Origin: a virus
Direction: 5' to 3' (one strand)
Length of the DNA stretch: 21,949 nucleotides
Virus record (IMG/VR): IMGVR_UViG_3300023198_001055
Location: 1-21,949 of that record
The notes below the pieces were generated by a model. It was not told the DNA's origin and ran no database searches. It worked only from the letters and a program-made list of their open reading frames with translations. Position numbers and translations under genes: made by a program. Below are positions 1 to 20,985 of this stretch, piece after piece (within the stretch, counting starts at the first letter, position 1; each line of letters starts with the position of its first letter).

Positions 1-3000
1 GTGTGATAATCTCTTCGGCTTTCTCTTGGGCATCAAATGGGTTCTCTTCAGCGTATTTAGAGAGCGTAGAGGCACGATGATAGTATTCCTGACCCACAAT
101 ATACATTTCTTTGTTTTCATCAAAGAATGGATCCATTGCAGGCGTAGCCATGTTCTTTATAACTGTCTGGCCGGTGATTGTCTGGGCATTGATTTTATCT
201 TGATTGTTCCATAAGCTTTCAGCCATGGCGTCAACGAGCTCTTGCTGATTATATACTCCAAAGAATTGTTTAACTGTTCTCCAGAACTTCTTCAACAGAC
301 TTTTAAACTTCTCCAGGAATGTTCCTGAGAATCCGGTTTCGGCAAGATTGAAAGCACTTCTACCAATAGCTATGATTACCTGCTCTTCAATCTGGTCCTC
401 GGGGAGATTTGCAAATTCAGGATTATTCCTGAATAATCTCATAAGTTGAGCTTTCACATAATGATCAGCCGGCAGAGCATCCCAATAGATGTGAGCATGT
501 TCATGAAGCGTTGAGGATTGTACAGCTTTCTCCGGATCAATCCATACTGCATTACCGAAAGCATGACCAATAGCTGTCATCGAGACATTACGTAACCGAC
601 CGCCCTGCTTCCTTACGAAATCAAAAAAGGCTTCTTTGTCTGTAAAGAATACTACATTCGGATAAAGCTCGCTTAATCTTTCAAAGATGTGTTGCTGGAT
701 AGCAGGATCCTCCGTCATTAAAGCTTCACCCACTGCATCGACAGCAAGCATATTATGAATGTCCTCTGGAGATGTTTGCTGGTCCTGACGAACAAAGAAT
801 TTTGAATCTTGCTTTCTCCACTGAACAATCTTTTTCGCCCAGGGAAGGAAGTCTCTGGCGAAACTTACTTTTCCTTTAAACCCTCTCTCTACTGATTCCC
901 TTAATCCCGGGAAACCGTATTCCTTTGTCCAGGCTGTTGTGGATTCTTTATCATGTACCGACTCGACAGCTTCAAGAGCATCATAATCAAGCGGGATGTT
1001 TGTTCCGGTAGCAGCTATATTGATATCATAGTTAAGAGCCGGGTACTGGCCTTCAGCCCAAAGTTCTTTAATCTTAGCATCATTGGATGCATTGATAATG
1101 AAATTAGCAATATTAAGCTGTTCCTCCGGAGTAAGTTTACCATCCATCCAATCATCAATCTCCCACTGTACTTGATCGGAAATAATGACTTTTTGCTTAT
1201 CACTCATCAATGAATAGAAACTACCGTTAAACCGGCTCGAAGATGTTCCAAACTTATGAAATACGTACTTTTTCAATTGGATGTGAAACTCAGCTGGAAG
1301 CTTATCAAAATCTTCATGGATCTCCTTCAGGGTGTTCTCATCAAAGTTTGTGAACTTGAATTCAGGAATAACTTCAAGGCTCTGACCATACTTACCATCA
1401 ACGACTTTAAGTTTGTTGAGGAACTTATTATCCTTCTTAATATCAAGTGCATTGAAAGCTGCAATAACTTCATCTCTCACTTTGTAGAAAGGCTTATCCT
1501 TATTCAAAGCTCTGACTGCGACAATATTATTTAGCAGATATGATATTGACTGAAGCTGGGAATCCTGTAATGTATAAAGGTGACCTGCTTTCTTTGCTTT
1601 CTTACTCGTAAGCCTATTGGCAATATAACTGGATATGGATTGCCCTATGTTGGAAAACTCAACGGCATCATAATAGATCCTGTTCTGCATGAATTCCAGC
1701 ATCTTTGGAACGATCCTGAACTCCATCTTAAACTCTATTCCATTTCTTCCTTTTATAAAGAAATTCCTGGAATCAAACAGGTTGTATTGATTGTTATAGA
1801 ACTTACTCAACATCCCATTGGCAGACTGTAATTCATCTACGGAATTAGGAACGGTCTGAGTGAATCTATAAAGCCTTCTTATCTCCGGCAGATCTTGGGC
1901 TTGAGTGAAGAATTTTTTCAGAGCATCAACTTCTTCTTTACTGTGATCCTCCAGCAGGGCTGCCCATATAGCTTTAGCATCCTTACGAACAAGGCCTCCA
2001 TTATGCTTTCTGCTTAATGATGTAAAATCTCTCATTAATGGAGATGTGAAATAATTCACCTGAGAATCAATCGCTTTATAAATAAGATTATAATGCTGAT
2101 CAGCAGTCATTCCTTCTTTCACCTCCAGCTCTGGATCAGTCATGATCGAAAGCATCCACATATTGACAGTAACCTCGTTCAGGCCCATCAATTCTATCTG
2201 AGGATCCTTGGCATTATCAAATGCCATGTTCAGTAAATTGGTAATATGCCTCTTGATCTGGCCATGCCGGTCGTTTACAAAGCCCGTGAGCTTCTTTCCT
2301 TCTCCCATTGGAACAACTATACCTTCCTTCAATTGTATCTGATACATCGAGGCGATATTAAATAAGGTATTGATATCAGAAAGGATTCCCTTCATATCTA
2401 CACCCACCTTGTTTTGCTCCCATCCTTGCATATAAGCCTGGAAATCCATATCACTGAATTTATCCATGCCAGCCCTTAAACGCTTGACAATACTCTCGTA
2501 AGCATTTGTGTCGATAGGTGTGAGGATCTTCTCAGTCATAGCTGGATCCATATACCCATATACGATTTGCATCGTCATCTGATTAGATAAACCGTAACGA
2601 GTATTTCCTTCTATGATATTACCTTGATCGCTTCTAAAGAGGACCTGATTGTATCGGGCATCTCCATCGAAGTCAGAACCGGAATTCCGTTGGCTCTCCT
2701 GATCGAGCATTGTGATATTACCATGCGGCAGGTTAACAGCAAGTCTGGCGACTGTGTGTGAATGTAAATCATCTGCCGGCACTCTTGTTGAAATAACAGG
2801 CTCTCCCGGGATGATACCATTCCTTTCTGTTATCTCCCATTCCATCAAATTACCATCCTGGTCGAACAGGTCCGGATATTTTCTTTTATTCTTTTTAACG
2901 TACTTTATAGCTTCCTCTGACTTACCCTTGAATCGATCATCATGAGCTCTTGCTCCACCGATATTAGCCATGATCTCAGGAAGGATGACCCGCGTTACAC

Positions 3001-6000
3001 CATCCTTGTCTACAATTTCTTTTCTTCCTTCCAGAATATTATCAAGATCAGGAACCTCCTGTGCCGTTACCCTGTTGATTGCAATCTCCATCACATTCTT
3101 GGAGACATGATTGGCAACCTTATTACGAAGCATTGTCCGGATAGATGGTTCATTGAAACCAATGCCGGACTTGATCATCCGGTATAGCTCCGGATCATTG
3201 AGTGGATTAATATTCTGGGTAACCCATTCCATCCGAAGCTTGTCATTAGCTTCATTATTCAGCATATCCTCAAACTGCTTCATGATTTGATGCTGAGACT
3301 GGAATACAGCTCTGGCTACCTCAATGCCATTAGGTAAGAAGAACATATTTGAAAGGAGCTGTGAAGGCATCTTAGCTTCTTTCGGATTAGTATCATGCCT
3401 GAGGTCCTGCTGGATAAATAAATCTTCCGTATTTCTTTCAATGATATTGTCCTCAGTAATGGTGAACTTCTCTTTCACCTTACCCAATGCATCAAATATC
3501 TCAGCCGGCTTCTTCGTGGGATCCTCGGTGTGCTTATTTCCAGAAGTGAATGTGATCATATCAATATTATGATCCTTCATAATTTTCTTCAGGACTTCAA
3601 ACTTGCTGCCCTTATACTCCATGTCAAATACTTCGATACTGATTGTATTGACTTTGTTCAGACCGCGATTACCATCCTTGAGATTTGAGTGTAATCCTTT
3701 GAATGATGTGAGAAACTGATTCCCGGTAAGTTTATTGTAAATACTCCCCATGGAAGTAGCTACTTTTTTAAAGAACCCAGAACTTCCAATTGAAAGCCCG
3801 TCAGCTATCTCACGACCACCAAGGATCTCATCGCTGAGAATCAGTGTCCGATATGTTTTCCCTACTCCACCTTCGATATTTGAATTCAATCGGTAACCAG
3901 GTGAATTTGTAGAACCACCTCGTTTCATCAACCCAACTAATCCGTCTTTATATTGAGAAGTCTTTCCGTGAAACTGCTCGTTGATCTCGGATATGTTCAT
4001 TGCATAATTATAGACAAACTCCATAGCAAGACGCTTGCCTTTATCATTCCTTGTATCACCATCAATATTTGACCCAGGACCTGATAACTGGCCATTCTCC
4101 TGATAGATTAACGAGCCGAAGTTTGGAACAATAATATTCTTATAGAACCATTCTGAAGTTTTATTGAAGTCCGGAAACCGCTTCCTTATTTCTTCATAAT
4201 CCTTATTCGTTGGCTTATGCTTCTTGGAGTCTATCAGTAATAGAGATGCTTTATCTCCGAACTGGCCCATGTGCTGAAAATAAGTATCCACTCCATTGAG
4301 ATATGTATGAAGGAGAGAGAACATGATATCATGCACACTCATCTTATTTGATGGAGTTCCTTTCTTATCTGGATTCCGGTCTTTATTATGGATCCCGTTC
4401 AGCTCGATAACCTCCCGGCCTTGTCTTTCAGCCTCAGCTAAAACATGGGACATTTGCTTGAATGAGTTGATCCTGTCGCCTTTGATATCCGTTCCGGACA
4501 TACCGATCGATTCCCGGTCCTCAATGGCTGTAGAGAGCTTATAAAGGTTTGCCGTGATCTGGCGGCCCCCGACAATCTCCCCGGTGCTGAAATAAGCATC
4601 AAGCATCTCTTTAAAGGTATCCAGGTTCTTAGTCTTGGCAGACTTGATCATAAGCACTCCAAGGATTGTAGAGTGGACTTTAGGATAGATCCCGACAAAG
4701 GTATCTTTCTCAAGCATCTCCTGGTACGTAGCAAACTCTGTCTTCGTTGTGCTTCCCTGCTTCGTTGAGGCTACAGTCTCCCTTGTCTGTGGTTTAAAGT
4801 ACTGTCTCCACACTTCGGTATCAATCCCGGTAATCTCCATAAGGACTTTAAGATCCTCTTCAAACATGGCTTTGCGAGCCGCTGTACGCTCGGCTAAAGG
4901 CATATCTTCAAGAGTATTCTGTAAAGCAACACCATTACTTCGGTGTAAGCTCAACCTTCTCTTTACAGCATCATAGCCAGTATAAGTTTTACCTGTACGC
5001 TGATCAAAGAACTTGTAATTCTTAACTGTATCGTGATATGAATCAAGAAACTCCTGAAACTTGTTAGCTGGATTAAGCAGTTCTATTTTTATTTTTTCAT
5101 CTTTCTCTATAACCATCCCATATTGACGGGTCAGCTGGACATTAGAATAGAAATTGAACATGCTTATTACCTCAGAGAAATCTCTTTGAGAAAGAAGCAA
5201 AAGGAGATTACTTGTCAGGATATCATCGGCTTTGATTGATTCCAGAAATGCCTGAAAGGAATTCTCATCTGTTACAGAATCAAATTCTTCCATCTTAGCA
5301 AGTTCATAGAACTTTCTCTCGACAGCCGATTGAGATGTTTCAGAAACCCTGGCTACTTCCTGCCATACCGGTCTGAAAGTTTTTAGATTAGACATGAGCT
5401 TCTGGGCCCCACTCTGAAACGCTACCTCTGGATTCTCAAATACGATATCAAAAGCTTCAGGATCGAACAGCATCCCTTCTTCTTCATAATAATCCTCGAA
5501 AGTCTTTTTGATCTTGTCGATGTTGGCATCAATGAATGTCAGCCAGTATTGCTTCTGATCAATCGTTAGATCATCTTTCCTCCGGATGAAGTTCTTCAGT
5601 TTCTGGATAACGATACGAATATCAGTAACGCCTTTCTTTAATATGCTCCGTATCATCCGGTCAAGAGCTTCATATGCTCTCGGATCCGTTGGGATTGGAA
5701 CCCCAGAATACATATTGCCTTTGGTGTACCTGCGGAAGTTCTTCCACTCTGCAGCGATGACATTGTTCAGCTCCTGGGATTTATCCTGGAGTTCTGCCAT
5801 GGCTTCGTGATTAGAATCCTCAACGATACCAATCTGATCTTTACCAACCATGACAGCGATACTGTTACCATAAACCTCTCCTGTACGTGCATTCTTTCGA
5901 GGCTTGGCACGATCCTTAGCTACCGGCTTTAAAGAAATGGTCTGCTTCTTTGAAATCGCTTCTTTTAATCTCTTAGAAGATTTTGGATCCGTTGATCCGA

Positions 6001-9000
6001 AAATAGTTATCGAGCGGCCATCATTAAGTTGTACGCGATAACGATTGCCCTCTTTCTCATATACCTTACCGGTGATCTTCTGGCCTTCTTTTAGCTCAGT
6101 GTATAGCTTATCATGCTTCTCAGTAGGCAACTGGTACTTAAACGGTACTCCTTCGGTATCAGCTCTCTTATTGATCTCCTTATTTAGAACACCAAGTTGT
6201 TTAAGCATAAGCGCTGCTTCCGGATGAGATATTATCATCTGGCCAAACTGATCTCTTTCGGTAAGCTGGGAAAGTTCTGAAGATATACCTTCTACATATT
6301 CAAGTAACTGCTCATAGGAAGGAACTTCAAGCTGTCCTCCCGGCAATTGAACCAACAATCCAGCTTCGGCTAATTCTGGGTGGGCCTCAGCTATTTTCTT
6401 GTTGTGAGCATCAATATCTTTCTGTTCACCTTTATTCACCTCTATCTCACCTTCGACCTCGCTTGTTCCTTCGGTAACCTCAGTGGAGAAAGCTTCCTCT
6501 CCCATCTGAATACCTTCGGCTTCCTTTTGGTTTAAGACTCTATGTTTCCGAATAGATTTCCCGGTTACTTTCTTGTATCGAGCTTCCAGACTATTTTGAA
6601 GTGGAGAAGTTCTGGCTGCTCTTCCACTGGGATATTTTAATATGATATCAAGAATTTGTTGAATAGTCACATCTTCTGATATTCCTTTCATACTTGCTGC
6701 TTCATCACGAAGATCATCAAGTGTTCGGCCTTTTTGTCGGAACCAACCTCTTTTTATTTCATCAGTTGTATTACTTGGATCTCCTTTATCATCCCAAGTA
6801 TCTTCTGTAATTTTTTGCCCAACAATAAACTCTTCAAGAGGATTAGCGTCTATTTCTTCAGATTGTGTACGCTCAGATTCCTCAACCCAGGCAGCATGGA
6901 TCTCTGCCGGGTTATTACTTTCCTCAGCGATCCAGTCATTCATCTGGTCAGGCTGGATACCTTCAGGGGGCTGGTTATACTTCTCTTCGTCAGGAGTAGC
7001 TTCTTGCTCAACTCCAAGCTTTTTTTCCTCTGTTCCTTTAAATTGCAATTCCCCGGATGCTGCTGGTTGAGTCTCCCCTTCAGTAGCTTTCTCAGCCATC
7101 TCGGAAAGTTCATCTTTCTTTTTCTCCGGAACAGTTTCCTTTACTTCTTTTGCAGCGCCAGCAGTATTGACTTGGCTTGTAACCTCGTCAATCATTTTTT
7201 GTCCGGTAAGGCCAATAATAAAGGCTATCTGCTTCTCACTTAATTCATCTTTATATTCTTCTAAAAGAGCTACTATTGGCTCCGCATAATCCTCACCTTC
7301 AAAAATCTCCTTGAGTTTACTATTAACAGTTTTGTCCAATAGAACTTTCTGTTTCTTACCTTTAGAATCTTTCCATGAATATTTGACATTATCCCCATAG
7401 ACAAGCTCTTGATATCTCTCGGGAACGTTTGCTCCTTTCATGGCTACACCGAAAATAGCTACCGTGGCCAAAGTTTCCAGTTGCTGTTTAAAGAAGTTTG
7501 GATCCTGACTGGTATCACCTTTGAGCCCACGAACCATAAAGTAGTTAGCCAGTTCTTCGTAATATTCTTCCGCTATACCATCCCAGCCTAATCCTTTCCG
7601 GATAAAATTACTTGCGGGTTTTCCAGGATTCTTGGCTGCTTTAACTCCAATGTACTTACTCAACAAATATCGCTTTGCAGCTCCTTCCGGATTAGTTATT
7701 GCTCCAGGAACCTTAAATCCTTTCATGATATACGCACCCATCCTCTCAGTGAATATCTCAGCAAAGGCTTCGTAATATCCTTCCTTTTTCCCTTTTTTTA
7801 TTTCTTCCGGAGACTTAGCTTCAAGCTTTGCATACATCTTATTGTACTCCGGCTCGAATGTAACCTGAATATTAGGCATTGTATTGGTAGCGATATTCTT
7901 CTGAATCATCTGCTGATTAGCCAAGGTCTGAATACTCGCACCGCCAAGACGGGAAAGATTAGCTGCTGCCAGCTCAGGAGCTGTGAAAGTAGCTTTACCA
8001 TAAATCTTAGCCATCCGTGGGGATAACTTATGGACGGTAGCATTCACAACAGAGTTCTTGACTTTAGAGCCAAGGATCTTTGGGGCTTTTTTTAAGGCTG
8101 CTTTTGTAGTTGCCTTGCCCAAGGCATAGAAAGGGTTAGTCGCAACAAAAGACATCACATATGGGATCATCTGCTGTACTGATTGGCCTACTTTATATGC
8201 ACTTGATACTTCCGGAGAGGAATTAGCCATATTCAGCAAACTGTACATCTCTAAAACCTTATTCTCCGACCAGGTGACCTCACCGGTCAAGGCTCTATCT
8301 GCAATATCACTTATACGGAGAGCTTGGTTCATCTCGCTGATACCAGCAGTCAGTAAATGCTTGGCAGATCCGGAAGATAAAGCAACCTGAAAATCATTGA
8401 TAGTCTCATTACGTGACCATCTGCGGAACTGACTTTCCTGGGGATTCATCTTTAGAATCTTATTGTTGAATTCCAAAGCATCATCCAGAAACTTTCTTTC
8501 ATTTTTCAGTTTCTCGATATAGAGATCAACATTCTTCTCTCCATAAGCATCAGCAAACCTTTTATGCTCTTCCGGCATATAGCCTACATTTCCCGGGTCA
8601 GCTTGATAGATAGCCTTATATTGATGCTCAAGATCCATCCTGCGATCAGTCAGATCACGGTGGGTGTACTCAGCGAACATCTGTAACCCGTTCAATGATA
8701 CATTCGATCCATCTTCAGTAAGGAACATTTTAAAAGCAAGAGGCCTGGTCAGCTTCTTCTGCATTGCTTTCCTTTGATCAGGATCCTCTACTGTTTCAGC
8801 TATATGATCACTGGCAGCTTTATTTACAATTGCTCTTCTGGATATATAATCACTATTAGCATACTCGTCTGTTTTGGAAATAGAATTAAATATGCTGTCA
8901 ACTGCATTATTCTCAGCTTCGGTAAGCTGGATATCTTCACCATGGATCAAATTCTCCATGCTTAACATACCCTGATAGTCTTTCCGCTTAGATTGGCTTT

Positions 9001-9955
9001 TGATATGATCTTTAGCCAACTGAGTATAACCATCACTCATGAATTCATTAACAGCCCTATTAACCTGATCTTCGTTGAAGGCATTTCGGATATCATCATC
9101 TTTAACATTTCCGGAAATGGATCCTGAGTTGACAATGATATCCCGCTTATCTGACTGCTTCATTGGATCAGCAGAATGCTCTAAAGATTTTCGCTGACTT
9201 CTAAGCTTACTGATCTTAGAATCTATAAATGCTTCCTCCTTATTAAGTTCAGATAATGTAGCTGGGTCAGTTTTTGTTTGTTTTGCCAAGTTGGAAGGAA
9301 TTCCATAACTGGTAGGAATAGAATATCCTTGGTCCTGAGCGAGAATATTTTTTTTCTCAGTAATAGTCTGTAATTCTGATTCAAGCTGTTCGATATGCCT
9401 ATCCATATCATCAGTATAGATAAGTTCATCAATATTTTCTCTGCGTTCCTGTTTTAACTCTCCAATACGCTTAACAAGGTCTTGAAGATATTTTTTATCT
9501 TCTTTCCTATCAGGATCCAGTCCAATAAGTCCACGCAAACTTAATTCTTTCTGAAGCTTAACCTTTGCATCTCTTTCTTTTTGCTCAAGATTAGCAATCT
9601 CAAAATCAATTAAGCCAATACGGGTCTTAGCATCTTCTGGCTTTACTCTAACACGCTCTCCAGGTAAACCTTCTTCTTCTTCGCTGATAGGATTATATGG
9701 GATAGCTTCAAGCGGATTGGCTCCTTTACTTCTGGCTTGGGCAAGTTTTTCCCAAGCTTCTAATTTTTCTTCTTCAGGATCTCCAGGAAGTTTCAAATTA
9801 GGATCGTCAAGATCACCGATCTCTTCCCATTGTGGATTTCTAAAATCAACAGGTTTTTCTTGGAGTGAATCTTTGGTCCCGGGTAACATCAGATTAGGAT
9901 CATTAAGATCGCCAACAACCTCCCAGGCTTTTTGATCAGAGACTTTTTTACCCAT
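1..9955 (-). CDS. Giant virion RNA polymerase polyprotein with C-terminal zincin motif (partial, C-terminus outside window)
   Basis: The frame is open from the ATG at 9955 to the left edge, giving at least 3318 residues. Visible parts in order: a duplicated motif WExxGDLxDPNLxLPG (residues 11-26 and 43-58); charged coiled coils (about 105-260); a membrane-like segment near 596-613; an acidic E..TE/EE-rich helical region (about 725-800); a hydrophobic stretch near 820-840; a low-complexity E/K/P-rich linker (about 925-1035); an OB/S1-like stretch (1289-1320). The polymerase core follows, with an upstream barrel candidate (K2141, K2192, K2195, SQ at 2198-2199) and a second barrel with RVP at 2391-2393, HS at 2398-2399 and DFDGD at 2428-2432. 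HEHAH lies at 3151-3155. In crAss-like phages such single-chain polymerases are packaged and transcribe early genes after injection. ATG 9955 is 2 bases past the upstream stop and has no Shine-Dalgarno. The polymerase call is strong; protease activity and processing are inferred. Confidence 0.88.
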   Translation of the reverse strand, partial: MGKKVSDQKAWEVVGDLNDPNLMLPGTKDSLQEKPVDFRNPQWEEIGDLDDPNLKLPGDPEEEKLEAWEKLAQARSKGANPLEAIPYNPISEEEEGLPGERVRVKPEDAKTRIGLIDFEIANLEQKERDAKVKLQKELSLRGLIGLDPDRKEDKKYLQDLVKRIGELKQERRENIDELIYTDDMDRHIEQLESELQTITEKKNILAQDQGYSIPTSYGIPSNLAKQTKTDPATLSELNKEEAFIDSKISKLRSQRKSLEHSADPMKQSDKRDIIVNSGSISGNVKDDDIRNAFNEDQVNRAVNEFMSDGYTQLAKDHIKSQSKRKDYQGMLSMENLIHGEDIQLTEAENNAVDSIFNSISKTDEYANSDYISRRAIVNKAASDHIAETVEDPDQRKAMQKKLTRPLAFKMFLTEDGSNVSLNGLQMFAEYTHRDLTDRRMDLEHQYKAIYQADPGNVGYMPEEHKRFADAYGEKNVDLYIEKLKNERKFLDDALEFNNKILKMNPQESQFRRWSRNETINDFQVALSSGSAKHLLTAGISEMNQALRISDIADRALTGEVTWSENKVLEMYSLLNMANSSPEVSSAYKVGQSVQQMIPYVMSFVATNPFYALGKATTKAALKKAPKILGSKVKNSVVNATVHKLSPRMAKIYGKATFTAPELAAANLSRLGGASIQTLANQQMIQKNIATNTMPNIQVTFEPEYNKMYAKLEAKSPEEIKKGKKEGYYEAFAEIFTERMGAYIMKGFKVPGAITNPEGAAKRYLLSKYIGVKAAKNPGKPASNFIRKGLGWDGIAEEYYEELANYFMVRGLKGDTSQDPNFFKQQLETLATVAIFGVAMKGANVPERYQELVYGDNVKYSWKDSKGKKQKVLLDKTVNSKLKEIFEGEDYAEPIVALLEEYKDELSEKQIAFIIGLTGQKMIDEVTSQVNTAGAAKEVKETVPEKKKDELSEMAEKATEGETQPAASGELQFKGTEEKKLGVEQEATPDEEKYNQPPEGIQPDQMNDWIAEESNNPAEIHAAWVEESERTQSEEIDANPLEEFIVGQKITEDTWDDKGDPSNTTDEIKRGWFRQKGRTLDDLRDEAASMKGISEDVTIQQILDIILKYPSGRAARTSPLQNSLEARYKKVTGKSIRKHRVLNQKEAEGIQMGEEAFSTEVTEGTSEVEGEIEVNKGEQKDIDAHNKKIAEAHPELAEAGLLVQLPGGQLEVPSYEQLLEYVEGISSELSQLTERDQFGQMIISHPEAALMLKQLGVLNKEINKRADTEGVPFKYQLPTEKHDKLYTELKEGQKITGKVYEKEGNRYRVQLNDGRSITIFGSTDPKSSKRLKEAISKKQTISLKPVAKDRAKPRKNARTGEVYGNSIAVMVGKDQIGIVEDSNHEAMAELQDKSQELNNVIAAEWKNFRRYTKGNMYSGVPIPTDPRAYEALDRMIRSILKKGVTDIRIVIQKLKNFIRRKDDLTIDQKQYWLTFIDANIDKIKKTFEDYYEEEGMLFDPEAFDIVFENPEVAFQSGAQKLMSNLKTFRPVWQEVARVSETSQSAVERKFYELAKMEEFDSVTDENSFQAFLESIKADDILTSNLLLLLSQRDFSEVISMFNFYSNVQLTRQYGMVIEKDEKIKIELLNPANKFQEFLDSYHDTVKNYKFFDQRTGKTYTGYDAVKRRLSLHRSNGVALQNTLEDMPLAERTAARKAMFEEDLKVLMEITGIDTEVWRQYFKPQTRETVASTKQGSTTKTEFATYQEMLEKDTFVGIYPKVHSTILGVLMIKSAKTKNLDTFKEMLDAYFSTGEIVGGRQITANLYKLSTAIEDRESIGMSGTDIKGDRINSFKQMSHVLAEAERQGREVIELNGIHNKDRNPDKKGTPSNKMSVHDIMFSLLHTYLNGVDTYFQHMGQFGDKASLLLIDSKKHKPTNKDYEEIRKRFPDFNKTSEWFYKNIIVPNFGSLIYQENGQLSGPGSNIDGDTRNDKGKRLAMEFVYNYAMNISEINEQFHGKTSQYKDGLVGLMKRGGSTNSPGYRLNSNIEGGVGKTYRTLILSDEILGGREIADGLSIGSSGFFKKVATSMGSIYNKLTGNQFLTSFKGLHSNLKDGNRGLNKVNTISIEVFDMEYKGSKFEVLKKIMKDHNIDMITFTSGNKHTEDPTKKPAEIFDALGKVKEKFTITEDNIIERNTEDLFIQQDLRHDTNPKEAKMPSQLLSNMFFLPNGIEVARAVFQSQHQIMKQFEDMLNNEANDKLRMEWVTQNINPLNDPELYRMIKSGIGFNEPSIRTMLRNKVANHVSKNVMEIAINRVTAQEVPDLDNILEGRKEIVDKDGVTRVILPEIMANIGGARAHDDRFKGKSEEAIKYVKKNKRKYPDLFDQDGNLMEWEITERNGIIPGEPVISTRVPADDLHSHTVARLAVNLPHGNITMLDQESQRNSGSDFDGDARYNQVLFRSDQGNIIEGNTRYGLSNQMTMQIVYGYMDPAMTEKILTPIDTNAYESIVKRLRAGMDKFSDMDFQAYMQGWEQNKVGVDMKGILSDINTLFNIASMYQIQLKEGIVVPMGEGKKLTGFVNDRHGQIKRHITNLLNMAFDNAKDPQIELMGLNEVTVNMWMLSIMTDPELEVKEGMTADQHYNLIYKAIDSQVNYFTSPLMRDFTSLSRKHNGGLVRKDAKAIWAALLEDHSKEEVDALKKFFTQAQDLPEIRRLYRFTQTVPNSVDELQSANGMLSKFYNNQYNLFDSRNFFIKGRNGIEFKMEFRIVPKMLEFMQNRIYYDAVEFSNIGQSISSYIANRLTSKKAKKAGHLYTLQDSQLQSISYLLNNIVAVRALNKDKPFYKVRDEVIAAFNALDIKKDNKFLNKLKVVDGKYGQSLEVIPEFKFTNFDENTLKEIHEDFDKLPAEFHIQLKKYVFHKFGTSSSRFNGSFYSLMSDKQKVIISDQVQWEIDDWMDGKLTPEEQLNIANFIINASNDAKIKELWAEGQYPALNYDINIAATGTNIPLDYDALEAVESVHDKESTTAWTKEYGFPGLRESVERGFKGKVSFARDFLPWAKKIVQWRKQDSKFFVRQDQQTSPEDIHNMLAVDAVGEALMTEDPAIQQHIFERLSELYPNVVFFTDKEAFFDFVRKQGGRLRNVSMTAIGHAFGNAVWIDPEKAVQSSTLHEHAHIYWDALPADHYVKAQLMRLFRNNPEFANLPEDQIEEQVIIAIGRSAFNLAETGFSGTFLEKFKSLLKKFWRTVKQFFGVYNQQELVDAMAESLWNNQDKINAQTITGQTVIKNMATPAMDPFFDENKEMYIVGQEYYHRASTLSKYAEENPFDAQEKAEEIIT
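491..505 (-). other. HEXXH zinc-metallopeptidase motif
   Basis: These bases encode HEHAH (residues 3151-3155), preceded by STL and followed by IYW. HEXXH is the zinc-binding and catalytic motif of zincins. A glutamate pair at 3190-3191, in QIEEQ before VIIAIG, is a plausible third ligand, as in glu-zincin-like domains of phage and prophage polyvalent proteins. About 30 residues further on, lysine- and aromatic-rich amphipathic helices follow. Motif and spacing are seen; activity and substrate are inferred. Confidence 0.7.
2660..2674 (-). other. RNA polymerase catalytic DFDGD motif (double-psi beta-barrel)
   Basis: These bases encode DFDGD, residues 2428-2432 of the giant protein, preceded by SGS. 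In all two-barrel RNA polymerases the three aspartates of DxDxD hold the catalytic magnesium. An upstream RVP (2391-2393) followed by HS matches the spacing of the RxP motif of bacterial beta-prime, about 35 residues before the aspartates. The GSDFD context is the form I associate with crAss-like and YonO-like single-chain enzymes. Confidence 0.9.
9782..9925 (-). repeat. Tandem 16-residue protein repeat at the giant protein N-terminus
   Basis: Residues 11-26 (WEVVGDLNDPNLMLPG) and 43-58 (WEEIGDLDDPNLKLPG) are near-identical copies with starts 32 residues apart. The DNA copies differ at several silent positions, so this is an old duplication kept at protein level rather than a recent DNA repeat. 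The position at the extreme N-terminus suggests a short binding or packaging motif, which is inference. Confidence 0.8.
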
Positions 9956-13432: not shown

Positions 13433-16400
13433 TCAATCTGCTTTTCTTAATGTTGTTTTCATTTCAAGGAATTTAACATTCTTAGCACTTGTCCAGAACT
13501 TAACTCGCAAATACCCATCCACAAAGCGTTCTTTATTATTTACAGCAGACAGAGAAGATACTTGGTATTTAGGAAAGCTACCAAACCAACGCCTGTTCCT
13601 GTAAGTATAATCCCTTCCCATCATACGGAACTGTCCACCAATCAAACTCTGGATCTCTTCAATGATAAGCTGGTCAGAATTTTCAAGGGTTACCTGGTCA
13701 AAGAACAAATTACTTCCTATCAGCTCAAAGTTATCACAATATACAGCTTCTTTACCTTCCGACTTAACAACAACTTCTATCTCAGCTGTTCTTGCTATAC
13801 CGTAGATCACTCCGACATTACCTTTGCCATGAGCATAGATAGCATTACTATTCTGCTGAACAGAGAACGCTACATTGTGATATCGCATCCACCTACTTGC
13901 CGGGATCGTAAACTCACCAATGTATTTCTGTCTGCGGATATCATAACCCATTGTTTTGTAACCACCGGATGTGGGATTATAAAACGTGGTAAAGACAACC
14001 TTGTGATAAGGATCATATCCTCCTGTTATACCTGTCCCGTTTGTTTTGATCGGGTTATCATGATCTACAATAGCCGTGTCAACATTTTCCTCGAACCAGT
14101 TATTTAATCCCTTGGCAATTGAATCTTGAGAGAACTTCATTGAATCAGTCAGGGAAAGGTAAATCTTTCGCTTCGCATCATACCAATGGAAGCCCATATC
14201 CGACTCGACAAGGCCAAACTGATTGGAGTTACCTACTTTGTTAGTCATCTCGTCATGACGCTCAAACAAGCCTCCTGTGCCGAGCTGGACCGGATCCCCG
14301 AAAGCTGTCTGGGTTAAGGCTCTTTCATTAACCGGAACATAGCCGACAGCATCACGCTGCCAGAAGATAATCCGGTTGAACTTATTCTTGATATTGATCA
14401 GCTCTCCATACATCGAATCCAGGTCGATCTTATCATTTGTATTGAAGATCCTGAACTGGTCCTGTCTCTCTCCGATAGATTTTTGCGGAGAATGACGCAT
14501 CTGTACATCAAAGTCATTAATCAATGTAGCATTAAACGGAAGTGGTAAATAATAATCATTGATGTCATCACTTGAATAACCATCATTATAATTGTACTCT
14601 TCATATACATTACTTCCGGTTTCCATTCGGATACCAACCGTATTCAGTGTTGGGTTATAAGGCCTGTCCTTAGCAAAATGAACACCCTCTCTTAATGATA
14701 CATTTACCCGGGAAGATACAGGGAAGATAACTCCATGACCATTTTCTTCTTCTCCACTATCACGATGAGCGATAACTCGTTGCTCGTCATAAAGACATAT
14801 GTAATGATCTCCACCGAATACCTCTATCTCATTAAAGATATACTGACCACCTGATCCTATATCTGACTTAACGGTATCGTTGATTTCTTGGAAGTGCCCT
14901 ATAGCCATGTAATTTGAATTAGCTAAGGATGAATCACTCTGCCCTCCATATGGACTGGCTACTTCTCTTTTTACAGTACAAAGCAAGGCTCTCGCTCCCG
15001 TCCTGTTGTATTCGCCTTTGGGGTTATTCCCAGTTTCATCAATATCCAGAACAAGGATATTATGCCGACCACACTTACCATCTCTAGCCGGACCTTCAAA
15101 TTCATGTGTGGTTGCTTGATATCTCAAAGTTTCATTACGTGGATCGTAAGGTATATCAGATTCTAAAATTGTGTCGTATTTAGTTGAATAAAGAACGTCA
15201 TGACTTTCATCAATATCTGAATTATCTCCTCCTGGAGAAGATACTGTTTGAAGATTTAAAAACTTCTGATAAAAATCATAATGATCAAATCCACCAAAAC
15301 TTGATGTACGCATACTTGCCCGGCCATAACCGCTGGAAATAGCTTCGGAAACAAGATAAGGATCTATGTATTGCAGGTTTTCAATCTTATCACCAGCCTG
15401 TATATTAAAATTTTTCAGGTTAAATGTATCTTCCGGACAAAGGAAAGCATATGCTCCAGGATGCTGATCAGTATCGGATCCTGAGCTTCTATACCCAGCA
15501 GCCATCTTTATATCCAAATCATCCACACCAACAGCATAAGTGAAGGAAAGTAATCCTGAAGCAAGGTATTGGTGAACAATTGGAGTTCTTACAATCATAA
15601 AAGCACTTATATCGTCTATGATATCGGTCAGGTCCAGATTGGAAAACTTCATCCCCAGCGACCGGCCATTCAATTGATCATAATAAAATCCTTCTGCATT
15701 GGATTGATAATCATATCCACTGATAAGTTTTTCGCCATTCATCGTGCTGGCGTTTGTCCTTTTAGGGATTTCCGGATCCCCCGTCCCAAGGGTTGCATCC
15801 TGATTGTTCAGCCAACGGACAAAGAACGGCCTCCCGGTAAGGTCCAAGGCACAAAGCCCGTATCGGACAATCTCACCCCCGGGAAGGCTTTTCATCTTAT
15901 TGGAAATAATGGGAGATTTATAATCAAGAAACTCTCCATCAAGATCAGTAGACTCCCATACATAGTCAGACCATATAGGAGAGGGGCCGGCACTTGCTTT
16001 GCGATATTTCTTAAAAGCTACTGTTGGCACACACGTTCCGGATGTACGTGCCGCTCCGATGATCTCAGTAACCGGCAAGGTGAATATCTCATCCTCAACC
16101 CAGGTAATCGTTCCTCCACCATCAAGATTTGCTCCACCATTTGCCGTACCTCTGTATTGAATACCACAATACATCTTAGTATTTGCCGCGTTGACAACTG
16201 ATCCTGTTGGAGAATGGGTCAAGGCTTTCTCTCCGGCAGACCAGTCAGGAGGACTCCCGGTTAAGTCCACATAAGGATAACCGGTTACATCAAGGATAAC
16301 CTCTTTGCTTATCAACTCCATATCACAATCGATTTGGTTATTCTTCGATTGGACATTCATTCCTGTAACATCAAGCTCTGGTCTTGTCTCAACATTAGCA

Positions 16401-17380
16401 ATTACATTCTTCAGATTGATAGTCGTCAGATCCTTACACTTTTTGATAACAATAGAAACGTCCAGAAGATCATCCAGCGTTACAGTACCAGAGTTTTCAT
16501 TCCCATAATATATAACAGTCATATCCGCACTGGTCAGGTTACCGTCATAGAATATATTTCCTGGCTCTGCAGAATTGTAATCATTAGAATAGAAAGCAGC
16601 AATTTGAATCGAGCTGTAATCGGTATCCAGACCTTCAATGGATAATTGAATTGCCTTGGTAGTTATCTCGTCAGGGGCCCCTCCTTGAAACGCCTGGTAC
16701 TCATCCGGAGTAGTTCCTATGTTTCCTTTACCTACATTAACAGGATTAGACAGATAACTCCAGTCTGAATAATAATCTTCATTGATATATCTCCAGCAAA
16801 AGAAATAACTCCCGGCTTGCAGATAGCCACCGTCAATTACTCCTTCAAGTTTAAAGTCACCATACGCCTCAGTAATTTCAGGAGAAAATGGAAGAAATTT
16901 CTCTTCTACAATGACTTGTTTATTCAGCGGATCCTCATAACCTATATTCAGTGTCCATGGTGAATTGTTATCATCAGTCACATATAATCGCTGGATCTCC
17001 TGAGATTCATAAAAACCATACATAGCCCGAATAGGATAATCCATGGATAGATTCAATTCAGCATTTGATCCTGACCATAATGTTTCTATCGTACCAACCC
17101 CGGCAATACTAAAAGTAACTTCCAGGATATAGACTGAATTCAGAATTTCATCCAACGTTAACAGGATATGCCTTTCACGAAGATTGCACCATCCCAATAT
17201 CCTTGAGTTTGTAGATAACGTAAATGAGCCTATTGTACCCTTGATAAACTCCCAGATGTAATTACCTTCCTCAGCTTCCATGATAACACCATTCTTGCTG
17301 TAACGCATGGTGTGTTCAGGTTGGTAATTCGGATCGTTATCCGAATGTACTCCGTTGATTATCTTGTTGACTACTTTCAT
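13433..17380 (-). CDS. Large tail nozzle/'muzzle'-type structural protein, 1315 aa
   Basis: The protein is long and beta-rich, with no signal peptide, membrane helix or catalytic motif. The N-terminus, with NGVHSDNDPNYQP followed by RYSKNGVI, fits the opening pattern of phage tail nozzle proteins (G-x-x-x-D near the start, then an Asn-rich turn). Segments such as RLYVTDDNNSPWTLNI and VVFTTFYNPTSGG resemble blades of a beta-propeller. Size, and a position after the small adaptor genes and before the cargo genes, match the muzzle protein that closes the crAss-like tail and through which cargo is ejected. Its ATG overlaps the upstream stop by one base (TAATG). The assignment rests on layout and pattern, not alignment. 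A receptor-binding role is possible but not shown. Confidence 0.6.
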   Translation of the reverse strand: MKVVNKIINGVHSDNDPNYQPEHTMRYSKNGVIMEAEEGNYIWEFIKGTIGSFTLSTNSRILGWCNLRERHILLTLDEILNSVYILEVTFSIAGVGTIETLWSGSNAELNLSMDYPIRAMYGFYESQEIQRLYVTDDNNSPWTLNIGYEDPLNKQVIVEEKFLPFSPEITEAYGDFKLEGVIDGGYLQAGSYFFCWRYINEDYYSDWSYLSNPVNVGKGNIGTTPDEYQAFQGGAPDEITTKAIQLSIEGLDTDYSSIQIAAFYSNDYNSAEPGNIFYDGNLTSADMTVIYYGNENSGTVTLDDLLDVSIVIKKCKDLTTINLKNVIANVETRPELDVTGMNVQSKNNQIDCDMELISKEVILDVTGYPYVDLTGSPPDWSAGEKALTHSPTGSVVNAANTKMYCGIQYRGTANGGANLDGGGTITWVEDEIFTLPVTEIIGAARTSGTCVPTVAFKKYRKASAGPSPIWSDYVWESTDLDGEFLDYKSPIISNKMKSLPGGEIVRYGLCALDLTGRPFFVRWLNNQDATLGTGDPEIPKRTNASTMNGEKLISGYDYQSNAEGFYYDQLNGRSLGMKFSNLDLTDIIDDISAFMIVRTPIVHQYLASGLLSFTYAVGVDDLDIKMAAGYRSSGSDTDQHPGAYAFLCPEDTFNLKNFNIQAGDKIENLQYIDPYLVSEAISSGYGRASMRTSSFGGFDHYDFYQKFLNLQTVSSPGGDNSDIDESHDVLYSTKYDTILESDIPYDPRNETLRYQATTHEFEGPARDGKCGRHNILVLDIDETGNNPKGEYNRTGARALLCTVKREVASPYGGQSDSSLANSNYMAIGHFQEINDTVKSDIGSGGQYIFNEIEVFGGDHYICLYDEQRVIAHRDSGEEENGHGVIFPVSSRVNVSLREGVHFAKDRPYNPTLNTVGIRMETGSNVYEEYNYNDGYSSDDINDYYLPLPFNATLINDFDVQMRHSPQKSIGERQDQFRIFNTNDKIDLDSMYGELINIKNKFNRIIFWQRDAVGYVPVNERALTQTAFGDPVQLGTGGLFERHDEMTNKVGNSNQFGLVESDMGFHWYDAKRKIYLSLTDSMKFSQDSIAKGLNNWFEENVDTAIVDHDNPIKTNGTGITGGYDPYHKVVFTTFYNPTSGGYKTMGYDIRRQKYIGEFTIPASRWMRYHNVAFSVQQNSNAIYAHGKGNVGVIYGIARTAEIEVVVKSEGKEAVYCDNFELIGSNLFFDQVTLENSDQLIIEEIQSLIGGQFRMMGRDYTYRNRRWFGSFPKYQVSSLSAVNNKERFVDGYLRVKFWTSAKNVKFLEMKTTLRKAD

Positions 17381-18051
17381 TAATATTGTATAATTTCAAA
17401 TGATGAAGCTTCACCGTCTAATGCCCTTGCATGACGTACTGCTACATTGTAATCTCTCTCAAGATCCTTGGTGAACTGGATATGTCCGGAACGCATCATC
17501 TTATCGCTTTTGTTAAGCTTCCAATTATACTTACCGGCCATCTTGAATTTGATGAACTTTGTGATTGCATCCGAATGGTTCTGATTGATTACCCAGAAAC
17601 TATTCTCGTCAGTTTCGATATACTGATATATCAAAGTCATCTGCACGCTATCAAAACTATTCAGCAGATGCAGCTCTTCGGCTATTTCCTCCCAGAGATA
17701 AGGCAGGATGATCGTGCTTTCAGCCGGCCGCCATAACCAGCTGTAGTAATCATCCTCATGGGTATCATCTTGCCGTGTCGTAGCCCAATTGGAACTTAGA
17801 TACCGAGCGTTACATTGATCCTCATAATCCCCGGGGAGAACCATGGCTACCTTGTAGCAATCATCCGGAAGCTCAATAGTGCATCCGTCAACGGTAAACA
17901 GCTTGGCTTTGTACTTATAGGCATTTTTTGCTCCTATCTCCCGTTCTATGTATTTAGCCCATTTCATCATTTGATTTTGAAACCTCGCCAGTGAAGCATC
18001 CGTTTCGTCAATCGCGTCTATGATAGGCTGCTGAATTGATACCCGTTTCAT
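17380..18051 (-). CDS. Tail tubular/adaptor-type protein, 223 aa
   Basis: The N-terminus has two helices (IIDAIDETDASLARF, then MMKWAKYIEREIG) followed by a beta-rich part (KLFTVDGCTIELPDDCYKVA). The C-terminal part has a Trp/Tyr-rich helix and a basic stretch (KFIKFKMAGKYNWKLNK). Helical ends around a beta core are typical of T7 gp11-like tail tubular or head-tail adaptor proteins, which crAss-like phages also carry just before the muzzle gene. The start ATG overlaps the upstream stop by four bases (ATGA), and the stop overlaps the ATG of the large tail protein. Assignment is from gene order and fold-like pattern; moderate certainty. Confidence 0.6.
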   Translation of the reverse strand: MKRVSIQQPIIDAIDETDASLARFQNQMMKWAKYIEREIGAKNAYKYKAKLFTVDGCTIELPDDCYKVAMVLPGDYEDQCNARYLSSNWATTRQDDTHEDDYYSWLWRPAESTIILPYLWEEIAEELHLLNSFDSVQMTLIYQYIETDENSFWVINQNHSDAITKFIKFKMAGKYNWKLNKSDKMMRSGHIQFTKDLERDYNVAVRHARALDGEASSFEIIQY

Positions 18052-18443
18052 ATGATTAATTTATATGTTAAATCTGGATCTGCAAGACATTCTTCCATCT
18101 TCCTGCGTAAGTGAGTAGACGGCTTAAAATCAGCTTTGTATTCGTCTTGTATTTTACCTGTACATCTCATTGAAAAGAAAACTCCATGTATCGCTGCACT
18201 ACGAGCAAAACGAGCTTCTTTCTTTACCTCTTCCAAATCAGATGAATTTACATAGTAAGGAGTAAACCTCATTTGTCTTAGAATAACAACATCTAATCCA
18301 TGGCAAAGCATCTCTGCTGCATAGTGACAGAGCCGCTTCAAAATGAACAGAACATCCTGGTTCCTCATCCTTGGCTCTTTTTTACGAATCAATGCTCTTG
18401 CAGATCCTATGTAATCAATTGGCTTTCGGTGCAGCTTGCCCAT
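18048..18443 (-). CDS. HU/IHF-like small protein in the tail module, 131 aa
   Basis: Residues about 28-63 (DVLFILKRLCHYAAEMLCHG, then LDVVILRQMRFTPYY) match the HU/IHF pattern of a helix, a 'G-x-x-V-x-L' turn and a strand ending in F. Near the C-terminus ADFKPSTHLRRKM matches the 'F-x-x-S-x-x-L-K' end of that family. The region between them, where the DNA-binding arm would be, is longer and unlike HU. IHF-like subunits next to tail genes have been described in crAss-like phages, so this could be a ring or adaptor component built on that fold rather than a DNA-bending protein. The 5' end overlaps the upstream gene by 29 bases and the 3' end overlaps the next gene by four. Confidence 0.55.
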   Translation of the reverse strand: MGKLHRKPIDYIGSARALIRKKEPRMRNQDVLFILKRLCHYAAEMLCHGLDVVILRQMRFTPYYVNSSDLEEVKKEARFARSAAIHGVFFSMRCTGKIQDEYKADFKPSTHLRRKMEECLADPDLTYKLII

Positions 18444-19107
18444 CTTTCATTATTCTTAAATTGCTTTGTGCATCGTTTACAACATCAGTAATTGCCTGGT
18501 CGTTAAGTTTTAAATCCTTGGTTAATATTTGCATTATCACCGCTTGAGCCAGCCGAGCGTCCAGTGGGTATGGATCAGTAAATACCCGATCTCTAAATGC
18601 GGTTCCGTCAAGGACCTGTACATCCATTGGATTTTCCGCGATAATCACTGCTGCTCCTTCCATTATATACGGATAGGTATACAGGAATGTTCCTATCCGG
18701 GCATAGTACCCGAAGTTACGGTGGATCTCTTCCTTGACAAGAGCTTTCATTACCAGAGTGTCAAAATCGGTGGGCTCAAATCCTATGATACCCCCTGAAC
18801 CGGAAAGGCGGTTAAGTCCTAAATCTTCTGGAAGGGTGACAACTTCAGGCAATGAAGCTCTGCCAAGGGTAATGCTATTTACTACAATAGATGGATCATC
18901 AGCAGCATCGGTTTTGGTAAATGTAAATTTACCTGTTCGTTGCAACCATGCCGGTGAGATCTCGGGTTCAATACGGTAACTCTCTGAGATGAGTGATGCT
19001 CGATAATTATTTATCTTAAAAAGCAACCAAATATCTTCAAGATCGGTATCATCCTCCAAGGCTGACTTGATCTCTTTCACATCGTATATAATCTCTTCTA
19101 TCGACAT
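18415..19107 (-). CDS. Tail ring/stabilisation-type structural protein, 230 aa
   Basis: The protein starts with an acidic helix (SIEEIIYDVKEIKSALEDD), then WLLFKINNYRASLISESYR and beta-type segments. The C-terminal half, with DPYPLDARLAQAVIMQILT, resembles the helical end of phage adaptor or tail-completion proteins. There is no enzyme motif. It is the first virion-type gene after the homing endonuclease, and its ATG lies two bases past that gene's TAG stop. Position upstream of the HU-like and tubular proteins suggests a ring or tail-stabilisation role as in crAss-like phages. I see no motif that fixes the exact role. Confidence 0.5.
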   Translation of the reverse strand: MSIEEIIYDVKEIKSALEDDTDLEDIWLLFKINNYRASLISESYRIEPEISPAWLQRTGKFTFTKTDAADDPSIVVNSITLGRASLPEVVTLPEDLGLNRLSGSGGIIGFEPTDFDTLVMKALVKEEIHRNFGYYARIGTFLYTYPYIMEGAAVIIAENPMDVQVLDGTAFRDRVFTDPYPLDARLAQAVIMQILTKDLKLNDQAITDVVNDAQSNLRIMKDGQAAPKAN

Positions 19108-19109
19108 AG

Positions 19110-19727
19110 CTATGCTGTTTTTCTATATTTCCAAATAAAACCACCGGCAGACGCTCTAAGTCCATTTGCAACTCGATCAATGTTAAATATTTTCAACTTC
19201 TCTCGAGCCTGACTTGCAGAATCCCAATGCCTTATCAAATTTCCATTTTTGTCAAATTGACTGATAGGTATACTCCAATGATCAGACATTTTTTTACGAG
19301 CCTCTTTAGACATTTTTTTCCCAGTATGAGTTTTTGACATTTTTAATAATGTCTCTTTAGAACGAGGATTAAGTTGATGTCTTTTTTTCTGTGCAATACT
19401 CATCTTTACTTTTGTTTCTTTGCTTGCCTTATGCCCTACTCTACTATAAGCAGTTTTCAAGATATTAAACCAAGGATCCAATAAGTCGATAAAATATTGC
19501 TCAGATTCAATTAGATTATCTCTTGTGCATTTTTTTAAAACTGAAAATTCTAAATCTTCAATTCCGTATTTATTGAAATGGGCTTGCAATTTCGGATTAT
19601 CATGAACATTTCTATTCAATCGAGAAAGATGGAGACCCCATCTTGATCTCATATTGACCGTACTGCCAATATATATTCGATCAGAATTGATCTTAGATTG
19701 AATTTTATATATTCCGATTATCTTCAT
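19110..19727 (-). CDS. GIY-YIG homing endonuclease with NUMOD repeats, 205 aa
   Basis: The GIY-YIG domain is at the N-terminus: GIY at 5-7, YIG at 19-21, R27 and R29, H33, the metal-binding glutamate in ESEQYF (E76), and N88. It is followed by NUMOD3-like repeats (ETKVKMS near 104; ETLLKMSKTHTGKKMSKEA near 125) and a NUMOD1-like C-terminal helix-turn-helix (ISQFDKNGNLIRHW through GGFIWKYRK), which bind DNA. Such free-standing endonucleases cut a site in related phages and spread by repair. Sampled lines are 30-33% GC against 40-52% in the next gene, which fits late acquisition. It sits between two complete genes, not in an intron. The upstream sequence AGAAGAGAT is a possible ribosome binding site. 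Confidence 0.9.
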   Translation of the reverse strand: MKIIGIYKIQSKINSDRIYIGSTVNMRSRWGLHLSRLNRNVHDNPKLQAHFNKYGIEDLEFSVLKKCTRDNLIESEQYFIDLLDPWFNILKTAYSRVGHKASKETKVKMSIAQKKRHQLNPRSKETLLKMSKTHTGKKMSKEARKKMSDHWSIPISQFDKNGNLIRHWDSASQAREKLKIFNIDRVANGLRASAGGFIWKYRKTA

Positions 19728-19740
19728 ATCTCTTCTACCG

Positions 19741-20229
19741 TCATTTCCGTAAGATTAAGAATGCTATTGTGAATATGAAAAGTCCAAGGACAATCCAGAA
19801 TCCGTATCCAACGAAATCCTGGTATCTTGTCTTAACTGGAATCTCTTTGATATATGGCTGTTCAATTATATTCGTATCTGTAGAATTACGCACAGCACTA
19901 TCAAGATATATTGCTAATAGGCTGTCACGTTGTATAAGCTCTAATTTGAGCTTATTATTCTCAATGGATGCCGTGGCTTCTGAGAAGTCTGTCTCTGCGT
20001 ACAGGGAAGTATATGGCACGTTGACACGCCTTTCTATCAACTTCTCGACAATAACTGAATCCCTGATTGTTTTCCCGGGAAGATATTTATAGATTGTTGT
20101 GTCTTTCCATTCTACTGAATGACTGAATACAGTATCAGCTGGTGGTGGTGGGAATTTGAAAAGACATTTATTCTGAGTTACACACCCGGAAAATAATACG
20201 GCGATTAATATGAATAATAGATATTTCAT
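19741..20229 (-). CDS. Lipoprotein with C-terminal membrane helix; candidate unimolecular spanin, 162 aa
   Basis: Starting at ATG 20229 the protein has a classic lipoprotein signal: basic start (MKY), hydrophobic core and lipobox LFSGC with the lipidated Cys at 16, then Cys22 and a PPPP stretch. The last 24 residues are a hydrophobic helix (FWIVLGLFIFTIAFLIL) ending RK. An outer-membrane lipid anchor plus a C-terminal inner-membrane helix is the layout of unimolecular spanins such as phage T1 gp11, which fuse the two membranes in lysis. The start at 20229 is preferred over ATG 20292, which would put 21 residues ahead of the signal and cover a hairpin; CAGGAGAA lies just before 20229. It follows the holin candidate. 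The spanin role is inferred from topology. Confidence 0.7.
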   Translation of the reverse strand: MKYLLFILIAVLFSGCVTQNKCLFKFPPPPADTVFSHSVEWKDTTIYKYLPGKTIRDSVIVEKLIERRVNVPYTSLYAETDFSEATASIENNKLKLELIQRDSLLAIYLDSAVRNSTDTNIIEQPYIKEIPVKTRYQDFVGYGFWIVLGLFIFTIAFLILRK

Positions 20230-20258
20230 TTCTCCTGAATATTTAGACGTTGTTTTAA

Positions 20259-20283
20259 AGGGGAGACTTGTATGCCTCCCCCT
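20259..20283 (-). terminator. GC-rich hairpin between holin and lipoprotein genes
   Basis: On the minus strand GGGGAG-type and CTCCCC arms (20276-20281 and 20260-20265) pair around a 10-base loop and are followed by TTTAAAA. This is the only GC-rich stem in an intergenic gap here. The U-tract is short, so it may be a weak terminator, an RNA-processing site or a translation-controlling hairpin for the next gene. Confidence 0.35.
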
Positions 20284-20291
20284 AAAAATCA

Positions 20292-20522
20292 TTATACATC
20301 CCTCTTCAGATCTCCATCGGTATTCTCAAAGAGATTCTTTGACAGATACGCCAAGAGAGTAGTAATCGCTACCACTCCAATCGCTTTGAAGAATTCAGCA
20401 TCAAACGCTGTCCCTGCTTGAATCACTTGATAAAGAAAGGTGACAATTGATGAAAAAACGGCAAGCAGACCGCCTTTTAAAAAGTCCCTCCAATTCAATT
20501 TTAAAAAATTTGATCGTTCCAT
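20292..20522 (-). CDS. Holin-like two-helix membrane protein, 76 aa
   Basis: Two hydrophobic helices are visible: about 17-36 (GLLAVFSSIVTFLYQVI) and 45-60 (FKAIGVVAITTLLAYL). They are separated by a short loop and followed by a charged tail (DGDLKRDV). Size, topology, and position between the candidate endolysin and the spanin-like lipoprotein fit a class II holin, which makes holes in the inner membrane at lysis. No holin family is recognised by sequence. The gene starts 31 bases after the upstream stop with no clear Shine-Dalgarno. Confidence 0.55.
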   Translation of the reverse strand: MERSNFLKLNWRDFLKGGLLAVFSSIVTFLYQVIQAGTAFDAEFFKAIGVVAITTLLAYLSKNLFENTDGDLKRDV

Positions 20523-20553
20523 AGTAATTGGTTTTTATTAATACTGTAACAAG

Positions 20554-20985
20554 TTACGTAATTTCAATTGTCATTTCCTCATTATTCCGAATTGCTTTTA
20601 ACATCCTCTCTACAATAAGCAACTCATACTTCGTAGAATTCAACACCTTACCCTTCTCTTTATTCTCCCCGGGAAGGATGCACCCATGTGAATCCTTGGC
20701 TGTATTTCCTCTATGAACCCTGATTCCTGTAAAGTGAGGAACATTTAGAATTATAGGCAGCAACCGTTTAAATTTCGGTGACATGGTGAGATCCATATTA
20801 TACCTACCATAAGGAATAGCAGTCTCACCAAAAACCTTTTCTTCTCCCTCATCATCCAAATCACCATCAGTATTTGTATCCCTGACCTTATCTTCAATAG
20901 TCTGACATAAGAGGAGCCCATCAATGAATAAGTCTCCAATAGTATAATCGGGGGATAAATATTTCCTATGCAACCTTATTCTCAT
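20554..20985 (-). CDS. DUF5675-like protein with SHGC motif; candidate endolysin, 143 aa
   Basis: The layout FGETAIPYGRY, NVPHFTGIRVHRGN and DSHGCILPG matches the DUF5675 family common in Bacteroidota phages. H91 and S99-H100-G101-C102 mirror the H...(S/T)HGC signature of YkuD-type L,D-transpeptidases, whose cysteine attacks peptidoglycan cross-links, so C102 is a likely catalytic nucleophile. Residues 36-46 (DTNTDGDLDDE) look like a calcium-binding loop just before the core. There is no signal peptide, so holin-dependent access to the wall would be needed. It overlaps the upstream small gene by four bases (ATGA). The family match is by pattern; enzymatic activity is inferred. Confidence 0.7.
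   Translation of the reverse strand: MRIRLHRKYLSPDYTIGDLFIDGLLLCQTIEDKVRDTNTDGDLDDEGEEKVFGETAIPYGRYNMDLTMSPKFKRLLPIILNVPHFTGIRVHRGNTAKDSHGCILPGENKEKGKVLNSTKYELLIVERMLKAIRNNEEMTIEIT

Follow-up and report, generated by a model that had tools for sequence, protein, structure and literature searches.

The window, the whole 21,949-base stretch of DNA analyzed here, is an IMG/VR fragment without end repeats. Its genes for ring proteins, muzzle, two cargo proteins and one giant ORF follow each other in this order on the minus strand. Tail ring protein 2 (18415..19107; PF25702, above the cut-off) and a tail ring protein 1-like product (17380..18051; PF24228, below the cut-off) precede the muzzle protein (13433..17380; PF25731, 269 bits), whose family was detected in each of the six other records tested, in five of them above the cut-off. 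Between the muzzle gene and the giant ORF lie P3 (11487..13436, 649 aa) and P2 (9958..11487, 509 aa), the positional counterparts of crAss cargo proteins C1 and C2, respectively. Homologues of both, of about the same sizes, stand ahead of the giant ORF in four relatives, L012, L099, L101 and L102. The gene order of the relatives is that of the window and is also seen in crAss001 and the Suoliviridae, and muzzle, ring proteins and cargo block thus occupy the conserved positions of Crassvirales. The 22-kb fragment contains no TerL, MCP or portal gene, and the relatives gave a weak TerL match and no MCP match to Fpv3. At the other end of the window, also on the minus strand, a GIY-YIG homing endonuclease with a weak NUMOD3 motif (19110-19727) sits between the tail ring protein 2 gene and a likely lysis cassette (19741-20985). 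The cassette encodes a DUF5675 protein (101 bits) and two further products, one membrane-like (76 aa) and the other lipoprotein-like (183 aa), the latter with a hydrophobic C-terminal end. A small cupin-like protein (21562-21948) is truncated where the record ends.

The giant ORF (P1) starts with an ATG at position 9955, two bases past the stop codon of the preceding gene, and runs stop-free on the minus strand to position 2, giving at least 3,318 codons (residues 1-3318); the frame runs off the record, so that its 3′ end is lost. In 200 base-shuffled versions of the window DNA, the longest stop-free run was 203 codons (mean 100). L012, a contig from a different metagenome found by an alignment-based scan, has a giant ORF of at least 4,112 open codons that is collinear with that of the window over the whole length of the latter; the two proteins share 39% identity across the first ~970 aa and 47% across residues 1160-3308. 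Nucleotide identities at the three codon positions were 0.58, 0.72 and 0.36 over 3,039 aligned codons, indicating that the giant ORF is under coding selection. The window is one metagenome fragment and a near-identical copy of it was not found, which could be taken to favor an assembly or chance artefact. Such a reading is already contradicted by this conservation pattern and by the open, collinear frames of L012, L099, L101 and L102, which come from other metagenomes, and we give it practically no weight. The original prediction of one frame of more than 3300 residues uniting a virion RNA polymerase (RNAP) with other modules was therefore borne out.

Four further relatives (L099, L101, L102 and L103) came from a later scan and L098 from an earlier one. 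Their giant ORFs encode at least 4,611 aa in L099, 4,820 aa in L101, 4,729 aa in L102, 5,796 aa in L103 and 5,610 aa in L098, so that complete relatives span 4,729-5,796 aa. All relatives were recovered by alignment-based scans, and single-sequence peptide scans yielded none. No relative was present in the genome contigs searched, phmmer with the whole giant ORF found no match in the PDB, and PHROGs had no match to it. When 3,000-aa and 1,663-aa pieces of the giant ORF were compared with phages by tblastn, no match was found; crAss RNAPs did appear with a 667-aa tile, at E values of 2-3, and the negative results of the long tblastn queries are therefore uninformative. Judged by sequence, the window belongs to an undescribed crAss-like lineage without a match in the annotated phage collection searched.

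The central part of the giant ORF corresponds to a polymerase. An HMM built from eight crAss-like vRNAPs, with the window left out, matched P1 at 3e-10 (best shuffle, 0.19), and a long RNAP profile gave four ordered matches at residues 1978-2047, 2115-2195, 2386-2435 and 2537-2603. Profile-profile comparison of the window lineage with crAss-like RNAP reached 99.6% (E 1.5e-23). The catalytic DxDxD motif, DFDGD, lies at residues 2428-2432 (2660..2674, minus strand), with RxP upstream and D..K (AKDP region) downstream, and the residues invariant among ten crAss-like sequences are kept in the window (R2391, P2393, S2399, G2426, D2428/D2430/D2432, D2580 and K2583). When an AlphaFold2 model of residues 1520-2710, of modest quality (mean pLDDT 57), was compared by VIA with 891 chains, the phi14:2 virion RNAP (6VR4) ranked first (Z 13.5 over 553 residues, 18% identity) and QDE-1 second (Z 12.4); Foldseek placed QDE-1 entries at the top (E 5e-5). 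The polymerase is of this two-barrel type and not a T7-like polymerase domain of the N4 type. Profiles and predicted fold together indicate that the giant ORF holds a genuine crAss-like virion RNAP with the two-barrel, single-chain fold of the phi14:2/QDE-1 type. The match to 6VR4 covers residues 1730-2707 (1835..4768, minus strand), and the core of about 2120-2440 given originally was too small; ahead of the core supported by the fold stand about 1,700 residues rather than some 2000. At least 610 residues follow position 2707 inside the window, and complete relatives continue past the motif for 2,213 (L098), 2,514 (L102), 2,534 (L101) or 2,798 residues (L103); the original figure of at least 880 residues after the core was a large underestimate because the record ends inside the giant ORF. 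A FastTree phylogeny built on 73 RNAP cores placed the window together with L012 and L098 in a separate group (support 98-100).

The N-terminal module (residues 1-1160; 6476..9955, minus strand) includes, at residues 981-1159, a linker without counterpart in the local alignments with L012. Its ~1,160 residues showed no match to known cargo proteins except for a marginal LPD14 domain (PF18827) at residues 785-847 (7415..7603, minus strand), which scored 26.5 bits against a cut-off of 27 and 35.5 bits in L012. The possibility that this module is a fused gp47/g067 protein found no support; HHalign gave a probability of 0.7%, no HMM matched, and position alone agrees. A by-eye likeness of the region to Fpv3 gp32 was tested and was not significant. 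In L098, residues 2112-2361 of the giant ORF, ahead of the RNAP, gave a weak match below the cut-off to ART-PolyVal, an ADP-ribosyltransferase (E 0.0027).

Downstream of the polymerase, HExxH conservation and a profile match point to a zincin-like metallopeptidase region with a putative zincin fold at residues 3071-3256 (188..745, minus strand). HEHAH occupies residues 3151-3155 (window 491-505), and the E in EEQVIIAIG near residue 3191 is a candidate third zincin ligand. Six of the seven lineage members (the window, L012, L099, L101, L102 and L103) have HExxH past the RNAP, and an EEQ..AIG helix was also seen; L098 has HExxH before the RNAP only and none after it. HExxH ahead of the RNAP was seen in L098 (at 1873) and L103 (at 1264) and was absent from the window, L012, L099 and L102. 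A structure model of the zincin and nuclease region (pLDDT 38) was too poor to confirm a fold. In profile comparisons with other crAss-like phages, the zincin segment of the lineage matched the N-terminal part of their gene downstream of the RNAP (83%, E 9e-6), and a homologous zincin lies at the junction of RNAP and gp49 in L091 and L080.

The last codons of the giant ORF inside the window (2..88, minus strand) correspond, by comparison with relatives, to the start of a region that bears a PD-(D/E)XK nuclease-like domain. The pattern GxADL...FDFKTT...LQL is present in L099, L101 and L102, and the nuclease segment of the lineage also matched the N-terminal part of the gene after the RNAP in other crAss-like phages (94%, E 1e-7). 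At about residues 3210-3250 of the L012 giant ORF, the acidic residues of PD-(D/E)XK are replaced (AGTIN, AFKTS) where L099, L101 and L102 keep GxxDL and DFKT, and the nuclease of L012 may be dead. The C-terminal part of the chain resembles the gp49/g065 family of RNAP-associated proteins in profile-profile comparison (97.2%, E 4.6e-11). Single-profile matches of the gp49/g065 HMM were 6e-6 in L101 and 9e-6 in L099, with shuffles no better than 0.13. The nuclease-like and gp49/g065-type parts were seen in relatives only, the latter in relatives at about 30-34% identity, and both are missing from the window because it stops short of them. A profile search did not detect the gp49/g065-type part in L012, whose ORF extends over at least 4,112 codons, and no separate gp49-like gene was found in the records of the gp49-fused relatives (L099 and L101). 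The prediction that neighboring cargo genes were fused thus holds, in relatives, for the RNAP and the gp49/g065-type protein and is unsupported for the N-terminal part.

Giant polymerase proteins were also found elsewhere among crAss-like phages. The RNAP motif occurs in Suoliviridae proteins of 4,328 aa (cr113_1), 4,461 aa (cr56_1), 4,551 aa (cr1_1), 4,946 aa (cr118_1) and 6,386 aa (cr272_1) in RefSeq, and Flavobacterium phage Fpv3 has a giant of 4,287 aa. Previous studies reported sizes of up to ~6,000 aa for crAss-like RNAP genes (PMC10136315), that large multidomain proteins, in some cases with a PD-(D/E)XK domain, make up the transcription block (PMC7886860), and that vRNAPs are fused to large proteins in crAss-like and N4-related phages (PMC10770324). 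The assumption that such a fusion is unusual was not confirmed. Among 34 IMG/VR loci with a complete 5′ end, gathered with a Suoliviridae query and from earlier scans, at least 2,208 residues precede the motif in 23 and 1,348-1,894 in 11, proportions that are not population estimates since the sample is skewed to the query's own relatives. The phi14:2 polymerase, originally put at near 2200 residues, indeed measures 2,180 aa, and its split form was the rarer one in the sample examined. In the tree of RNAP cores, the split state was largely confined to the clade of phi14:2 and to crAss001; with long branches and no known root, this tree does not show a direction from fusion to split. The N-terminal module, RNAP and gp49-type protein are all fused in complete ORFs of L080 and L095, and RNAP and gp49 only in L091. 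All four arrangements occur (three genes, the first two fused, the last two fused, or all fused), and the order of modules is fixed. The window protein is therefore a new example of an arrangement usual in crAss-like phages and not a new kind.

Two observations on the annotation of these genes were made in passing. The giant RNAP genes of L006, L008 and L009 (NC_055872, NC_055896 and NC_055890) carry the misleading RefSeq names 'exonuclease V', 'DprA-like' and 'nuclear pore complex protein-like'. In IMG/VR loci such as L020-L022 and L027-L036, many giant RNAP ORFs stay open only when TAG codes for an amino acid, a reassignment already reported for crAss-like phages.

Comparison with known systems showed which features are shared. 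As in the window, Fpv3 gp32 (NC_031904) is a single giant ORF past the muzzle and two cargo genes, with a crAss-like RNAP in its second half (DYDID at 3116) and HExxH about 950 residues past the motif, just as the window's HEHAH follows its RNAP. Unlike the window lineage, it ends soon past the zincin and the next gene is separate; its RNAP core is about 18% identical to that of the window, and its N-terminal part is not detectably related. The Suoliviridae giants likewise fuse the RNAP to a long N-terminal module in the same position past the muzzle and cargo genes, but their gp47-type zincin lies in the N-terminal module ahead of the RNAP and the gp49-type gene is separate and downstream. 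In phi14:2 (g067/g066/g065) and crAss001 (gp47/gp50/gp49), where the cargo has been shown in virions, the RNAP (6VR4) and the RNAP-associated protein are homologous to those of the lineage, whereas the genes are separate and the RNAP polypeptide has only 2,180 or 2,412 aa. In L080 (5,677 aa) and L095 (5,547 aa), the N-terminal module, RNAP, zincin and gp49-type protein form one complete ORF; these differ from the window by an additional zincin ahead of the RNAP and are distant from it in the tree. Outside the crAss-like phages, N4 vRNAP gp50 (3,500 aa) has a similar plan of N-terminal ejection module, central RNAP, HExxH zincin and encapsidation region (PMC5512222, PMC4496689), although its RNAP is an unrelated T7 single-subunit enzyme, so that the plan is shared but not the membership. 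Thermus phage P23-45 gp96 (5,002 aa) also carries a two-barrel virion RNAP in a giant injected protein, which unlike that of the window is fused to the tail tape measure protein of a long-tailed phage and has its RNAP at the N-terminus (PMC10770324).

Taken together, these results suggest, with a probability of about 80%, that the giant ORF encodes the virion-packaged RNAP of an undescribed crAss-like lineage, made as one giant chain. Sequence and predicted fold place a two-barrel RNAP in mid-chain, followed by a conserved HExxH zincin-like segment, and in relatives the same frame continues through a PD-(D/E)XK nuclease-like part to a gp49/g065-type protein, ending at ~4,700-5,800 aa. Packaging, intactness and activity of the chain are inferred. 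The homologous proteins of crAss001 belong to the virion cargo. Their likely storage site is in the capsid, close to the portal, and cargo was proposed to exit N-terminus first and partly unfolded (PMC10172136). In N4, a 3,500-aa vRNAP passes a 25 Å tail tube (PMC4496689), and its chain consists of an ejection module, RNAP and a zincin-bearing encapsidation region (PMC5512222). By analogy with crAss001 and N4, the giant chain would be synthesized late, kept as cargo close to the portal and threaded through the tail at least partly unfolded, with the N-terminal module in the lead; the leading role would follow from the position of this module. The chain would then refold in the cell, where the RNAP would transcribe early genes, and the fused RNAP-associated part would travel with the RNAP in a fixed 1:1 ratio.

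Entry as a single chain, in which the order of domains may set the order of entry, would be the default expectation, and the conserved zincin-like motif may make self-cleavage possible. In a true polyprotein, cleavage by the zincin, either inside the capsid or once the chain has entered the cell, would release three products: an N-terminal ejection protein, the RNAP and a gp49-type protein. Retention of HExxH past the RNAP in every lineage member except L098 and the homologous zincin at the RNAP-gp49 junction of L091 and L080 are consistent with such cutting, which would restore the separate proteins that the same modules form in other crAss-like phages. In addition, zincins of polyvalent proteins were proposed to process their own chains, and DdrB of phage P1 is processed before packaging (PMC5512222). 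However, N4 vRNAP, with a zincin past its RNAP, was reported to be packaged unprocessed (PMC5512222), L098 dispenses with this HExxH, and cleavage site and product in the window's chain are hypothetical. We therefore consider processing of this kind unlikely. Slightly less probable again is that the chain acts mainly as a 'polyvalent' invasion effector, whose zincin and nuclease would attack host proteins or DNA and whose RNAP would be one of several cargos. LPD14, zincin and ART-like modules are parts of polyvalent proteins, and L099, L101 and L102 retain an intact PD-(D/E)XK core; against this, the acidic residues of this core are replaced in L012, and PD-(D/E)XK and zincin segments recur next to the RNAP genes of many crAss-like phages, a pattern that a function in transcription or delivery would explain just as well.

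The yardstick is hereby corrected: the phi14:2 polymerase of known structure represents the short, split form, and in most crAss-like phages sampled the enzyme resides inside a chain about twice the length of that of phi14:2 or more. We tentatively propose, at somewhat less than even odds, that fusion is the older, default state of crAss transcription cargo and that this lineage carries the whole cargo, from a unique N-terminal ejection module through RNAP, zincin and nuclease to the gp49-type partner, in a single thread of 4,700-5,800 residues. If so, separate genes of the phi14:2 type would be a derived breakup, and gene ends would shift freely while the order of modules stays fixed. Because all arrangements occur with one module order, the lineage would be useful for asking whether the cargo acts as one chain and whether the recurrent zincin cuts it.
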